From Caldicellulosiruptor naganoensis (GTDB taxonomy: Bacteria > Bacillota > Thermoanaerobacteria > Caldicellulosiruptorales > Caldicellulosiruptoraceae): DNA of 64,000 nt. The first letter of the stretch is position 1; each line of letters begins with the position of its first letter. This document shows, one piece after another, positions 48,963 through 55,760 of this stretch. Made by a program: the position numbers and the translations under genes. The DNA is taken from assembly GCF_026914285.1 (NCBI RefSeq), contig NZ_CP113864.1:2077001-2141000 (forward strand), read 5' to 3'. The notes beneath the pieces are model-generated. The model saw only the letters and a program-made list of their open reading frames with translations. It had not been told where the DNA came from and made no database searches.

Positions 48963-50543
48963 TTATTTCCCCACTTTCTCCTTACAAAGCTTATACTCTA
49001 AGGAATCTACAAGCGCAATCCAGCTTGCATTGACAATGTCGGTAGAAACGCCTACAGTTGTCCATGTGTCCTTGCCATCTGTTGACTCAATCAGAACTCT
49101 TACCTTTGCAGCTGTTGCAGTCTCAGCATTCAGCACTCTCACTTTATAGTCAACAAGATGAACCTCTTTTAGCTCGGGATAGAACTTTTCTAAAGCTTTT
49201 CTCAAAGCACTATCTAAGGCATGGACAGGTCCATCACCTTCTGCAGCTGTAATTGCTGTAACACCATCTACCGCAATCTTGACAATTGCAGAGGAGCTGT
49301 ACTCAACAGCTGGCTCGTTAATCAGTACTTTAAACTCTTTGAGAGTAAAGAATGGCTGGTAAAGCCCAAGTTTTTTTCTAATTAGCATCTCAAATGAAGC
49401 CTCTGCAGATTCAAACTGATACCCTTCGTTCTCAAGCCGTTTAAGCTCGTCAATAATCTCTTTAGTGATTGGAGAGTCTTTTGTAACTGTCGGGTCAATC
49501 TCACGGATTTTATCAAGCACAGTTGACCTTCCTGCAACTTCAGACAAAACAATCCTTCTTGTATTACCAACAATCTCAGGGTCAATATGCTCAAAAGATG
49601 CAGGGTTTTTCTTAACAGCGTCAATGTGCATACCAGCCTTGTGTGTAAACGCATAAGCTCCAACGTAAGGTGCGCGCTCGTTTGGAATCATATTGGCAAT
49701 CTCAGCAACATACCTTGAAAGAGATGTCAGGTGTTTTATATTCTCATCAGGCACACATTTAAACCCAAGCTTTAGCTGAAGATTTGGAATGAGCGTGATA
49801 AGGTCTGCGTTTCCACATCTCTCACCATATCCGTTTATAGTTCCCTGTACCTGACGAGCTCCTGCCAAAACTGCCATGATTGAGTTTGCAACAGCCATAC
49901 CTGTGTCGTTGTGACAGTGAATTCCAATCAATGTCCCAGGAAACATCTCAACAACTTCTTTCGTGATGTTGTAAATATCCATTGGGAAGGTGCCACCGTT
50001 TGTATCGCACAGGTCCAAAGAATCTGCTCCTGCCTCATTTGCAACCTTTAAAGTTTCCAAAGCGTACTTTTTGTTGTTTTTGTACCCATCAAAAAAGTGC
50101 TCTGCGTCAAATACAACATATTTGCCCAAAGACTTTAGATATTTTATAGTGTCATAAATCATCTGAAGATTTTCGTCCTCTGTTGTTTTTAAGACTTCTT
50201 TGACATGAAAATCCCATGACTTGCCAAAGATTGCAACAGCTTCGGTATCAGCAGCAATTAATGACTGGATGTTAGGATCATCTTTTACACTTATTCCAAC
50301 CCTTCTTGTTGAACCAAAAGCTATAAGCTTTGCATTTTTCAATTTCATCTTTTTTACTCTTGCGAAAAACTCTTGGTCTTTAACATTAGAACCAGGATTG
50401 CCTGCCTCAATGAATTTGACCCCAAACTTGTCAAGCCTGTCAACAATCTTTAGTTTGTCCTCTAAGGTATACGAAATTCCACCTGCTTGAGCACCATCTC
50501 TTAGTGTTGAGTCATAGATGATGATTTCCTTGTTATCTACCAA
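48963..50543 (-). CDS. cimA: (R)-citramalate synthase
   Basis: A 526-residue enzyme condensing acetyl-CoA with pyruvate to citramalate, the entry to threonine-independent isoleucine synthesis. The catalytic barrel shows YDSTLRDGAQAGGISYTLED, GIHCHNDTGMAVANS, GTINGYGERCGNADL and KAGMHIDAV. The C-terminal part (about 390-520) is the LeuA dimerisation/allosteric domain, presumably binding isoleucine. The TTG at 50543 is the likely start, with AAAGGAGGG upstream; the frame stays open to 50570. The leader just upstream carries an Ile-rich peptide and an attenuator, which supports an isoleucine role over leucine or homocitrate. Confidence 0.92.
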   Translation of the reverse strand: MVDNKEIIIYDSTLRDGAQAGGISYTLEDKLKIVDRLDKFGVKFIEAGNPGSNVKDQEFFARVKKMKLKNAKLIAFGSTRRVGISVKDDPNIQSLIAADTEAVAIFGKSWDFHVKEVLKTTEDENLQMIYDTIKYLKSLGKYVVFDAEHFFDGYKNNKKYALETLKVANEAGADSLDLCDTNGGTFPMDIYNITKEVVEMFPGTLIGIHCHNDTGMAVANSIMAVLAGARQVQGTINGYGERCGNADLITLIPNLQLKLGFKCVPDENIKHLTSLSRYVAEIANMIPNERAPYVGAYAFTHKAGMHIDAVKKNPASFEHIDPEIVGNTRRIVLSEVAGRSTVLDKIREIDPTVTKDSPITKEIIDELKRLENEGYQFESAEASFEMLIRKKLGLYQPFFTLKEFKVLINEPAVEYSSSAIVKIAVDGVTAITAAEGDGPVHALDSALRKALEKFYPELKEVHLVDYKVRVLNAETATAAKVRVLIESTDGKDTWTTVGVSTDIVNASWIALVDSLEYKLCKEKVGK

Positions 50544-50567: not shown

Positions 50568-50602
50568 CAAAAAAGCCCAGCCTGTGTAATTTTGGCTGGG
50601 CT
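50568..50602 (-). terminator. Attenuator terminator in front of cimA
   Basis: On the minus strand AGCCCAGCC (50594-50602), loop AAAATTACACA, and GGCTGGGCT (50574-50582) form a 9-bp GC-rich stem followed by six T. It ends 25 bases before the cimA start. Its loop and first 3'-arm bases, TACACAGGC (50580-50588), are perfectly complementary to GCCTGTGTA (50683-50691) in the leader, giving an alternative antiterminator helix. Confidence 0.85.
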
Positions 50603-50639
50603 TGTAAAATTCAATTTAAATTTAAGTCTTGCTATCAAT

Positions 50640-50804
50640 TCAAAGATGCCCTAAGGGTCTTTTTAAAAACCCTACCTTAACATACACAGGCCAAAATGGG
50701 TGCAATGCGGCATATGAAATTTTATAAATCAACTTAATTATTCTTTTTCTAATTATTGAAATAATACCAACCATTGATATTATGCCGCATATTCGTATTA
50801 TCAT
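50640..50804 (-). CDS. Isoleucine-rich leader peptide (54 codons) of the cimA attenuator
   Basis: The ATG at 50804 has AAGGGGTG eight bases upstream, and TGA ends the frame at 50640. Residues 2, 3, 5, 8, 9, 14, 15, 17, 18, 22, 23, 26 and 29 are isoleucine, 13 of the first 29. Seven of these are ATA codons (2, 3, 5, 8, 9, 17, 22). The first residues read MIIRICGIISMVGIISII. The mRNA around it can fold: ATGCGGCAT (50782-50790) with ATGCCGCAT (50705-50713), and GGGTGCAA (50809-50816) with TTGCACCC (50698-50705). The peptide itself probably has no function. Ribosome stalling at Ile codons when Ile-tRNA is scarce should favour the antiterminator. That mechanism is inferred from classical amino-acid attenuators. 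Confidence 0.85.
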   Translation of the reverse strand: MIIRICGIISMVGIISIIRKRIIKLIYKISYAALHPFWPVYVKVGFLKRPLGHL

Positions 50805-50846
50805 TCTCTTGCACCCCTTTGACCCTTTAATTTTTATTTGGTAATT

Positions 50847-50875
50847 ATTTTAACCCCAATTTAAAAATTTGTAAA
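50847..50875 (-). promoter_or_regulatory. Promoter for the cimA leader
   Basis: TTTACA (50870-50875) and TAAAAT (50847-50852) lie 17 bases apart on the minus strand, directly after the leuA stop. cimA can therefore be transcribed separately from ilvBNC-leuA as well as by read-through. Confidence 0.75.
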
Positions 50876-50884
50876 GAGTCAATT

Positions 50885-52408
50885 TTACTCTTCTGAAATT
50901 TTATACAGCATCTTGTTTATCGCATTTATATATGCCTTTGCACTTGCCTCTAAAATGTCGGTAGAAAGTCCTCGACCCAAGAAAGCCTTACCGTCTTTCT
51001 TGATTCTAACAGTTACCTCACCAAGAGCATCTTTTCCTTGGGTAACAGCCTTTATACTATAATCATCAAGTTCAACCTGAAGACCTGTGATTCTGTCAAT
51101 CGCTTTGAAGATTGCATCAACAGGACCATCACCTGTTGCTGCCTCTTCATACTCTTCTTCACCTGATTTTATCTTGACAGATGCTGTTGAAATCAAATCA
51201 TTTCCACTTATAATTTGGAACTTGACAAGCTCGTATGTCTCTGGGATGTTGAGAGATTTTTGCTCCAAGAGCGCTTCTATATCCTTGTCAAGTACAATTT
51301 TCTTCTTGTCTGCCAGAATCTTGAACTTTTCAAATGCAGCATCAATTTCTTCTTTTGTAAGGTCTGTATATCCAAGCTCTTTGAGTCTTTCTTCAAATGC
51401 ATGGCGACCAGAGTGCTTGCCAAGTACCATCCTATTTCTCGGAAGACCAATTGACACAGGGTCAATAATCTCATAGGTCGAGCGCTCTGACAACACACCA
51501 TGCTGGTGAATACCAGATTCGTGCGCAAATGCATTTGCACCAACAATTGCCTTGTTTGGCTGAACAAATACACCAGTGAGTGAAGATACAAGCTTGCTTG
51601 TTCGATAAATCTGTGTTGTGTCAATCAATACATCGACATCATAAAAGTCCTTCCTTGTCTTGAGTGCCATGACAATCTCTTCTAAAGCAGCGTTTCCAGC
51701 TCTTTCTCCAAGTCCGTTTATCGTGCACTCAACCTGATGAACACCTTCTTCAATAGCTGCAAGTGAGTTTGCAACAGCAAGGCCAAGGTCGTTGTGGCAG
51801 TGAACAGAAATCTGCACCTTGTCAATATCAGGAATTCCTTCTTTTATAGCTCTTATAATCCTCTTCATCTCCTCAGGTGTTGTGTAGCCAACTGTATCGG
51901 GAATGTTTATAACTGTTGCACCAGCTTTTATAACAGCATCAAACACCTTTATCAAAAACTCTATTCTTGACCTTGTGGCGTCCTCGCATGAAAACTCAAC
52001 ATCAGAAACATATTTTTTTGCATACTTTACCATTGCAACAGCTCGCTCTAAAACCTCGTCTTCTGTCATCTTGAGCTTATATTTCATGTGGATATCGCTT
52101 GTTGCAATGAATGTGTGGATTCTCGGCGATGAAGCCTTTTTGAGCGCTTCATAAGCTCTATCTATGTCCTTTTCAACTGCTCGCGCCAAAGATACTATAA
52201 CAGCATCTTTTATGTTTTCTGATATAACCTTTATAGCCTCAAAATCACCTGGAGAAGCTACGGCAAACCCTGCTTCTATCACATCAACTTTGAGCTTTTC
52301 AAGCTGCCTTGCAATCTCAAGCTTTTCATTGACGTTGAGCGACACACCTGGTGTTTGCTCACCGTCTCTCAAAGTTGTGTCAAAAATCTTTATAACTCTT
52401 TTCCCCAT
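50885..52408 (-). CDS. leuA: 2-Isopropylmalate synthase
   Basis: A 507-residue enzyme of leucine synthesis (acetyl-CoA plus 2-oxoisovalerate). The barrel motifs are [53 protein letters not shown] and [14 protein letters not shown]. The C-terminal LeuA regulatory domain (about 375-500) should bind leucine. The ATG at 52408 has GAGGGG upstream. It follows ilvC after 16 bases and precedes the cimA leader. Confidence 0.95.
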
Positions 52409-52424
52409 CAAAACCCCTCACTCT

Positions 52425-54012: not shown

Positions 54013-55626
54013 TTACTGCGGGATAGTTGGTTCATCAGGACTTATTACAACTTCTAACAAAAATGGTCCTTTGTGATTTTTCAAAGTCTCAACGGCTTCT
54101 CTCACCTGATCCTTCTTGTCAATGCGCATTGATTGAATATCGTAAGCTTTTGCTAAAATCATAAAGTCAGGATTCCCGTCAAGACAGGTTGCAATGAACC
54201 TGCCACTACACCTTCTTTTTTGAAGCTCATATACCATTCCAAGTCTTGTGTTATTAAAAAGCACAATCTTCACCGGCACCTGCTCTCTTTTTATTGTCGC
54301 AAGCTCCTGCAGAAGCATCTGAAAACTCCCATCACCAGTAATGCTAATCACTTCTTTGTCTGGTCTTCCAAACTTTGCACCAATTGCCGCAGGAACTCCA
54401 TATCCCATTGTGCCAAGTCCACCTGAAGTTATAAAGGTTCCTGGTTCTTTGATATATAGATTATGAGCTGCCCAAATCTGATGCTGCCCAACATCTGTTG
54501 TGATTATATAATCACCATTGTATGCCCTTGAAATTTCTCTTAGTACATCATAAGGATGAAGCTTGTCATCATCTGGAAGAACTTTCTTCTGTGCTTTAAT
54601 CTCATGAGCCCAAAAATCTTTTCTTTCTGAAATTCTCTTATTAATCTCTGAAAGCACCTGTTTTGCATCGCCAACAATTGGCACATTTGTATCAACATTT
54701 TTTCCTATCTCAGCAGGATCAATGTCGATATGAATAATCTTCATATTATCAGTAATTTTTGTATCACCCAGCGCCCTGTCTGCAAGCCGCGCACCTATCA
54801 CAATTAAAAGGTCTGCCTGCCTGAGCGCTAAATTTGCCTCTTTCTGACCATGTGAGCCTATCATGCCAAGATAGTAAGGATGGTCTGTTGGAATACAGCC
54901 AATTCCCATCAAAGTTGAAATTACAGGAATCTTTTGCTTTTCTACTAAAATTCGAAGCTCTTCTGATGCCCCTGATGCAATAACTCCACCACCGCTGCAT
55001 ACAACAGGTCTTTTTGAATTTTCTATTGCTTCTACCGCTCTTTTTATCTGTAGAGGATGTCCTTTTTCTTTCGGCTTGTAGCCAGGAATATCAATCTCTT
55101 TTGGAATTTCAAATTCAATCTCCTGCATCTGTACATCTATTGGAACATCTATCAAAACAGGTCCTCGTCTTCCTGTTGAGGCTATATAGAATGCTTCTTT
55201 TAAAATCCTTACAATTTTTTTAGGATCTTTTACAAGATAGTTATGCTTGGTAAACGGAGCTGTTGCCCCTGTTATATCCACTTCTTGAAACACATCTTTT
55301 CCAATTAAACTTGAATTTACCTGACCTGTGATAGCCACAATAGGAACTGAATCCATATAAGCAGTTGCAATGCCAGTTATAAGATTTGTAGCACCAGGCC
55401 CAGAGGTTGCAACGCACACACCTACTTTACCTGTTGTGCGCGCATATCCACTTGCCTCATGAACTGCTGCCTGTTCTGTGCGTACTAAGACATGCTTTAT
55501 ATCAGAGCTATAGAGCGCATCATAAAATGGATATATTGCCGCACCTGGAATGCCAAAGATAATCTCTACACCTTCGCTTTTTAAAACCTCTACCATTGCC
55601 CGTGCTACCGTCATCTTTACCTTCAT
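54013..55626 (-). CDS. ilvB: Acetolactate synthase large (catalytic) subunit
   Basis: A 537-residue thiamine-diphosphate enzyme making acetolactate (valine, leucine) and acetohydroxybutyrate (isoleucine). It shows FGIPGAAIYPFYDAL, the catalytic Glu in VRTEQAAVHEASGYARTTG, GPGATNLITGIATAYMDS, and the metal motif GDGSFQMLLQELATI with a downstream NN. The ATG at 55626 is chosen because AAGGGTGGG precedes it; the frame remains open to 55716 with no ribosome site. It is the first gene of ilvB-ilvN-ilvC-leuA(-cimA), with 62 bases to ilvN. Confidence 0.95.
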   Translation of the reverse strand: MKVKMTVARAMVEVLKSEGVEIIFGIPGAAIYPFYDALYSSDIKHVLVRTEQAAVHEASGYARTTGKVGVCVATSGPGATNLITGIATAYMDSVPIVAITGQVNSSLIGKDVFQEVDITGATAPFTKHNYLVKDPKKIVRILKEAFYIASTGRRGPVLIDVPIDVQMQEIEFEIPKEIDIPGYKPKEKGHPLQIKRAVEAIENSKRPVVCSGGGVIASGASEELRILVEKQKIPVISTLMGIGCIPTDHPYYLGMIGSHGQKEANLALRQADLLIVIGARLADRALGDTKITDNMKIIHIDIDPAEIGKNVDTNVPIVGDAKQVLSEINKRISERKDFWAHEIKAQKKVLPDDDKLHPYDVLREISRAYNGDYIITTDVGQHQIWAAHNLYIKEPGTFITSGGLGTMGYGVPAAIGAKFGRPDKEVISITGDGSFQMLLQELATIKREQVPVKIVLFNNTRLGMVYELQKRRCSGRFIATCLDGNPDFMILAKAYDIQSMRIDKKDQVREAVETLKNHKGPFLLEVVISPDEPTIPQ

Positions 55627-55649
55627 TAAAACCCACCCTTTATATATGA

Positions 55650-55681
55650 AAAGTCCGACCGTGCTACTTGAGTTTGTCGGA
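55650..55681 (-). promoter_or_regulatory. Hairpin in the ilvB leader
   Basis: On the minus strand GTCCGAC and GTCGGAC form a stem around a 16-18-base loop, followed by TTTTCAT and then the ilvB ribosome site. It could be a weak attenuator. It is too short for a T-box, and no T-box conserved sequence is present. Confidence 0.5.
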
Positions 55682-55731
55682 CAATTGCTTTTCCAATGAC
55701 TTCTTGCTATTTTCAAATTAAATTTTGAAAT

Positions 55732-55760
55732 ATTTTAGCACGTATTTTTATTCGTGTCAA
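55732..55760 (-). promoter_or_regulatory. Promoter of the ilvBNC-leuA operon
   Basis: A consensus TTGACA (55755-55760) and TAAAAT (55732-55737) lie exactly 17 bases apart on the minus strand. They are about 105 bases before the ilvB start codon and leave a leader of about 100 nt. Confidence 0.85.

Follow-up and report, generated by a model that had tools for sequence, protein, structure and literature searches.

The trp and ilv attenuators of Escherichia coli place codons for the end product in a leader peptide and rely on three mutually exclusive RNA pairings, and the leader that we describe here upstream of cimA, the citramalate synthase gene of Caldicellulosiruptor, has the same layout. 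However, the E. coli antiterminator takes up the 5' arm of the terminator, whereas that of the cimA leader would take the loop and the 3' arm, and the predicted anti-antiterminator strand of the cimA leader, unlike its E. coli counterparts, includes the leader's own Shine-Dalgarno sequence (SD). Among Firmicutes, the Rli60 leader of ilvD in Listeria monocytogenes is a ribosome-mediated attenuator that has been tested with start-codon, ribosome-binding-site and terminator mutants (PMC5864092). Both it and the cimA leader combine a leader peptide, a terminator and an antiterminator ahead of branched-chain amino acid genes, but Rli60 controls the whole ilv-leu operon through a 13-aa peptide, whereas the immediate target of the cimA leader is cimA and its peptide is specific for isoleucine (PMC5864092). 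The Leu-rich attenuator of Staphylococcus aureus ilvD, with a 26-aa peptide, a terminator 52 nt past the stop codon and genus-wide conservation, shares with the cimA leader the peptide, the position of the terminator after the stop codon and the conservation across a genus (PMC5794164). It differs in responding mainly to leucine, in acting on ilv-leu and in its antiterminator, which is reported to pair with the poly-U tail of the terminator rather than with the loop and 3' arm (PMC5794164). The ilvBNC uORF or ilvB-II motif of Corynebacterium likewise consists of an Ile/Leu/Val-rich uORF, a terminator and a complementary antiterminator, but it is actinobacterial, uses mixed branched-chain codons and targets ilvB (PMC10272879, PMC11857589). 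Attenuators of the His type have also been predicted in Firmicutes (PMC9413887). Given the examples from Listeria, Staphylococcus and Corynebacterium, branched-chain attenuators are therefore neither a new kind of device nor new to Firmicutes; in the open-access literature, we found no description of a cimA attenuator or of any attenuator in Caldicellulosiruptor. T-box leaders (RF00230) serve the same purpose as the cimA leader, but they read uncharged tRNA directly and without an ORF, whereas the cimA leader contains a peptide ORF.

The leader is located on the minus strand of the window, that is, the whole stretch of 64,000 nucleotides that was analyzed, between leuA (2-isopropylmalate synthase; 50885-52411) and cimA (48963-50543), which has a TTG start codon with AAAGGAGGG upstream. 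The gene identities proposed in the initial annotation were upheld by matches to TIGR00973 / NF002086 for leuA and to TIGR00977 for cimA, the latter at 772.8 bits (cut-off 450). A sigma-70-type promoter, TTTACA-N17-TAAAAT (50847-50875; boxes at 50875-50870 and 50852-50847, separated by a 17-nt spacer), begins about 10 nt past the leuA stop codon and was recovered both by reading the sequence and by a promoter scan. It is followed by an ORF (50640-50804) of 54 codons and a TGA stop, which encodes the peptide MIIRICGIISMVGIISIIRKRIIKLIYKISYAALHPFWPVYVKVGFLKRPLGHL and is preceded by the SD AAAGGGGTG. As had been annotated, 13 of the first 29 residues of the peptide are Ile (7 ATA and 6 ATT codons). 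An intrinsic terminator, AAGCCCAGCC - 11-nt loop - GGCTGGGCTT - T-run, with a 10-bp GC-rich stem (50603-50569), ends 25 nt short of the cimA start codon, just where the annotation had placed it; it was missed by our pattern scan because the scan allows loops of only 3-8 nt.

Four strands could connect the ORF to the terminator. Strand 1 (GGGTCAAAGGGGTGCAA, or GGGUCAAAGGGGUGCAA in RNA form; 50809-50825), within which the leader SD lies, is complementary to strands 2 and 3 and is the anti-antiterminator strand of the predicted fold. Strand 2, the partner of strand 1, is TTGCACCC (UUGCACCC in RNA form; 50705-50698), which pairs with GGGTGCAA (50816-50809), and all Ile codons of the leader fall between strands 1 and 2. 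The antiterminator strand 3, GCCTGTGTA (50691-50683), is situated within the ORF and is the exact complement of strand 4, TACACAGGC (50588-50580), which takes in the second half of the terminator loop and the beginning of the 3' arm. The annotation had also proposed a second pair of 5' helices overlapping the Ile codons; the pairings were found, although it is the SD, not the Ile codons, that the outer helix overlaps. The inner of these helices, ATGCGGCAT:ATGCCGCAT, is present here, but ten congeners have it in a shortened form of 7 bp, and it has been lost in L021, the relative from another genus described below.

Both the Ile content and the complementarity are difficult to attribute to chance. 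We used 444 kb of the same genome as the null sample for Ile content, including 380 kb from outside stretches; in this sample, Ile accounts for 8.7% of the codons in long ORFs. The only one of 22,163 start codons followed by at least 12 Ile in residues 2-30 was that of the leader ORF, and the same held when the 1,407 SD-bearing starts were considered (1/1,407), the runner-up having 8. The leader-terminator complementarity noted in the annotation is exact over 9 bases, a length matched between strand 3 and the terminator loop plus 3' arm in 3 of 2,000 shuffles. Two relatives were tested in the same way; their complement extends over 7 bases, a length reached in 90 and 41 of 2,000 shuffles. It is thus less striking there on its own, and the weight in these relatives rests on conservation. 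The folding z-score of the leader RNA is -4.85.

To assess conservation, we compared the locus with those of 11 congeners, in which cimA is 97-98% identical, and of one genome of another genus in the same family (L021, 86%). The Ile leader device is found before cimA in all 13 family genomes, once per genome, and the SD, in-frame stop, helix arms and Ile-rich ORF are kept in 11 of 11 congeners as well as in the sister-genus genome. The promoter is conserved throughout the family (13/13), including the genome that lacks leuA upstream. In the 12 genus genomes, the leader has 52 or 54 codons with 12-14 Ile, and ten alignment columns are always Ile. The start codon is kept as ATG or GTG (the latter together with a 6-nt in-frame gap in L020), and the position of the stop is kept, although three stop codons are used (TGA, TAG and TAA). 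To judge from the alignment, the leader ORF is thus selected as a reading frame, its start, frame, stop and Ile columns being kept despite codon change. Furthermore, leader codons 26-41, which include strands 2 and 3, are invariant at 48 of 48 nucleotides in the 12 species. In cimA of the same species, by contrast, no fully invariant stretch exceeds 6 codons, and 27% of codons are invariant. Invariance extends to the whole family (13/13) for TGCACCC of strand 2 and for the 7-base core of the antiterminator, GCCTGTG / CACAGGC, including the CACA half of the otherwise variable terminator loop.

A comparison of the leuA-cimA gap in relatives had been suggested for conserved Ile codons and covarying helix arms. 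The former were found in 13 of 13 genomes, whereas covariation is thin: a single two-sided change, from G-C to A-U in the terminator of L021, with a G-U intermediate in L017. Support from covariation is slight because the helices hardly vary within the genus. The extension of strand 1 was considered as further covariation evidence and rejected, since the helix is kept in L021 through a one-base register shift and no compensatory change could be counted.

Allowing up to 2 mismatches, TGCACCCANTTNGGCCTGTG has one match in each family genome (13/13) and none in 24 class genomes from outside the family. When the own genome was searched at the DNA level for a second copy of the leader, only short weak matches were returned besides the leader itself. 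Ile-rich leaders ahead of cimA were recognised in none of 17 further class genomes and, at the threshold used, in none of 55 wider cimA loci. The class contains a second large family (L022-L038), whose cimA genes have a conserved palindrome-like element, TTATCA-N8-TGATAA or similar, upstream; it overlaps the promoter and is perhaps a repressor site.

The sister-genus relative is particularly informative. In L021 (genome G012), the leader peptide MIIIRICKSIILKISVIKFINNIIYKCTQLGL has 32 residues, 11 of them Ile, and the promoter, AAAGGGGTGCAA, TGCACCCANTTNGGCCTGTG and a terminator with CACA in its loop are all retained. Although leuA is not upstream of cimA in L021 / L151, the device is still positioned before cimA, so that an upstream leuA is apparently not required for it. 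These features bear on the best-surviving alternative, namely, that the product of the ORF is a small peptide with a function of its own, perhaps in the membrane, that the terminator merely ends the ilvBNC-leuA transcript and that cimA is driven by a separate promoter. The N-terminus of the peptide is hydrophobic and basic, and the C-terminal residues GFLKRPLGHL (50643-50672, minus strand) are kept through synonymous changes across the genus, a conservation that the attenuation model does not need and that counts against it. However, the peptide has no match in Pfam or NCBIfam, GFLKRPLGHL is absent from the sister genus, and L021 lacks the C-terminal half altogether, with the rest rewritten, whereas the RNA strands, the Ile richness and the terminator are kept. 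Moreover, L021 keeps the terminator without leuA upstream, and the sole promoter-like site found by the promoter scan on this strand of the gap precedes the ORF; transcripts of cimA starting from that site must therefore cross the terminator. We accordingly consider this alternative very unlikely. The hairpin formed by the C-terminal region of the long ORFs (GGGTTTTT / AAAAGACCC) is also absent from L021 and was therefore left out of the core attenuation model.

We next consider how the strands would act. In the predicted fold, strand 1 pairs with strand 2, and the helix continues as GGUCAAA:UUUGGCC into the beginning of strand 3; the upstream strand GGTCAAAGGGGTGCAA, SD included, thus extends over the antiterminator strand and is likely an anti-antiterminator. 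We calculated the cost of opening strand 3 at the point just before the terminator is made, with assumed values for the ribosome footprint, the growth temperature and the transcription start. At 70 C, the cost is 1.1-2.3 kcal/mol when the ribosome occupies the Ile codons and rises to 4.7-5.1 kcal/mol when it has reached the stop codon, a difference seen in 12 of 12 species; in L021, a ribosome that has reached the stop directly masks strand 3. When four bases of the strand-1 extension (GGUC) were scrambled in four species, the stop-codon cost fell to 1.6-2.2 kcal/mol, and shuffled 5' regions attained the natural stop-codon cost in 0-2 of 60 trials (four species). Without a ribosome, the cost at 70 C is 2.1-4.7 kcal/mol in the genus and 0.8 in L021; strong super-attenuation is not predicted, because strand 3 is less sequestered in this state than with the ribosome at the stop codon.

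When the RNA was folded at increasing lengths, the 3:4 pairing appeared as soon as CACAGGC had emerged, and the terminator displaced it after a further 3-4 nt. For the full RNA at equilibrium, the terminator is favoured in nearly every ribosome position; the sole case in which the antiterminator prevails is L009 when the ribosome stalls near codon 31. Thus, the model needs kinetic capture. Given the accessibility pattern of strand 3 and the timing of the 3:4 pairing, we expect read-through when Ile-tRNA is low and termination when it is high.

The reaction of citramalate synthase commits pyruvate to isoleucine; Ile, not Leu or Val, is the residue in which the leader peptide is rich. We conclude that the leader is very probably a ribosome-mediated transcription attenuator of cimA responding to isoleucine, a reading which the initial annotation had put forward and which the comparison of relatives supports; translation of the leader ORF, stalling, kinetic capture and the isoleucine response, and with them the switching itself, are what we infer. 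For the exact order of strands in the switch, we favour the following scheme by a small measure. RNA polymerase would start at the intergenic promoter, and a ribosome would begin on the Ile-rich ORF. With scarce Ile-tRNA, the ribosome would stall in codons 2-29, between strands 1 and 2, and hold them apart; strand 3 (GCCUGUG) would then be free to capture the emerging CACAGGC ahead of the remainder of the terminator 3' arm, so that the terminator would be pre-empted and cimA read. With ample Ile-tRNA, the ribosome would move on and, in its wake, strand 1 would again pair with strand 2 and, by GGUCAAA:UUUGGCC, with the beginning of strand 3, whereas in the short-ORF relative L021 the ribosome at the stop codon would itself mask strand 3. 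In both cases strand 3 would be unavailable, the terminator would form and cimA would be off.

Another possibility is that the RNA itself is the sensor, as a riboswitch or a protein-binding leader (TRAP-like or a new aptamer), with the ORF being incidental. Long conserved RNA strands would suit such a leader, and a TRAP gene together with a triplet-repeat leader (see below) suggests that protein-bound leaders are in use elsewhere in the genome. However, no Rfam family matches the leader; when other Rfam cis-regulatory families were tried, the best match scored 23.7 bits against a cut-off of 90. Moreover, no conserved domain precedes the ORF, what is conserved amounts to plain complementary strands, and the ORF, its Ile codons retained, has the look of a frame under selection. 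This renders the idea improbable, slightly more so than that of a functional peptide. Least probable of all is a TnaC-like arrest peptide that, from within the ribosome tunnel, would sense isoleucine itself or some related metabolite instead of a lack of charged tRNA. The high amino-acid conservation of the ORF in the genus, which extends to codons 30-41 and the C-terminus, would suit such a peptide. Against it stand the middle of the ORF, conserved down to each single nucleotide as RNA strands would be, and L021, which lacks the C-terminus and keeps the Ile density instead.

The attenuator reading also has to be viewed against the distribution of T-boxes. As a candidate for the leader itself, the T-box (RF00230) was rejected: none was present in the window at the gathering score and none in the leader among matches up to E 10. 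None was found in the own genome, and none was detected in any of the 12 genus genomes (G000-G011), whereas each of 24 class genomes from outside the family has 8-13 matches and the sister genus 1. In 10 wider loci from Clostridia and unclassified Bacillota, cimA is the last gene of an ilv-leuA-cimA-type cluster (leuA is missing in two), and in 9 of the 10 a T-box is present upstream of the cluster, often directly before ilvB. Most simply, T-boxes were lost in the genus and cimA acquired an isoleucine-only peptide attenuator, an order of events that we infer. A more specific combination with an unusual layout, in which a lineage-specific attenuator replaces the lost T-box, the antiterminator strand is captured by way of the terminator loop as a toehold ahead of the 3' arm and the leader SD strand serves as the anti-antiterminator, is offered tentatively, as a possibility that falls somewhat short of even. 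If the SD strand is the anti-antiterminator, a ribosome parked on the Ile codons would sit inside the controlling hairpin.

Other leaders in the same genomes were also inspected. Upstream of ilvB (window 55620-55760, minus strand), a hairpin resembling a terminator, GTCCGAC...GTCGGACTTTT, lies immediately ahead of the gene and downstream of a promoter-like site of the TTGACA type. Neither a T-box nor an obvious leader peptide accompanies it, and ilvBNC-leuA may thus be under an attenuator of its own. The leaders before ilvD and two chorismate-binding-enzyme genes yielded no Ile- or Trp-rich peptide. In L153 (~890-990), upstream of and into a candidate chorismate-binding-enzyme ORF, closely spaced GAG/UAG triplets precede a terminator, CCCCGATAGCTCATCGGGG-CTTTTT. 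By its repeats, this region looks like a TRAP-controlled leader, and a TRAP gene is present in the genome (PF02081). Within the repeat region, GATGAGCTA is the complement of TAGCTCATC, which takes in the loop and 3' arm; the cimA leader is arranged in the same manner.

One amino-acid sensor has thus apparently replaced another: relatives have a T-box on their ilv-leuA-cimA clusters, whereas the genus has no detectable T-box and appears to have equipped just the gene that commits to isoleucine with a peptide sensor for this one amino acid. Such a sensor would also suggest that, in an organism likely growing near 70 C, transcription and translation are coupled closely enough for attenuation.
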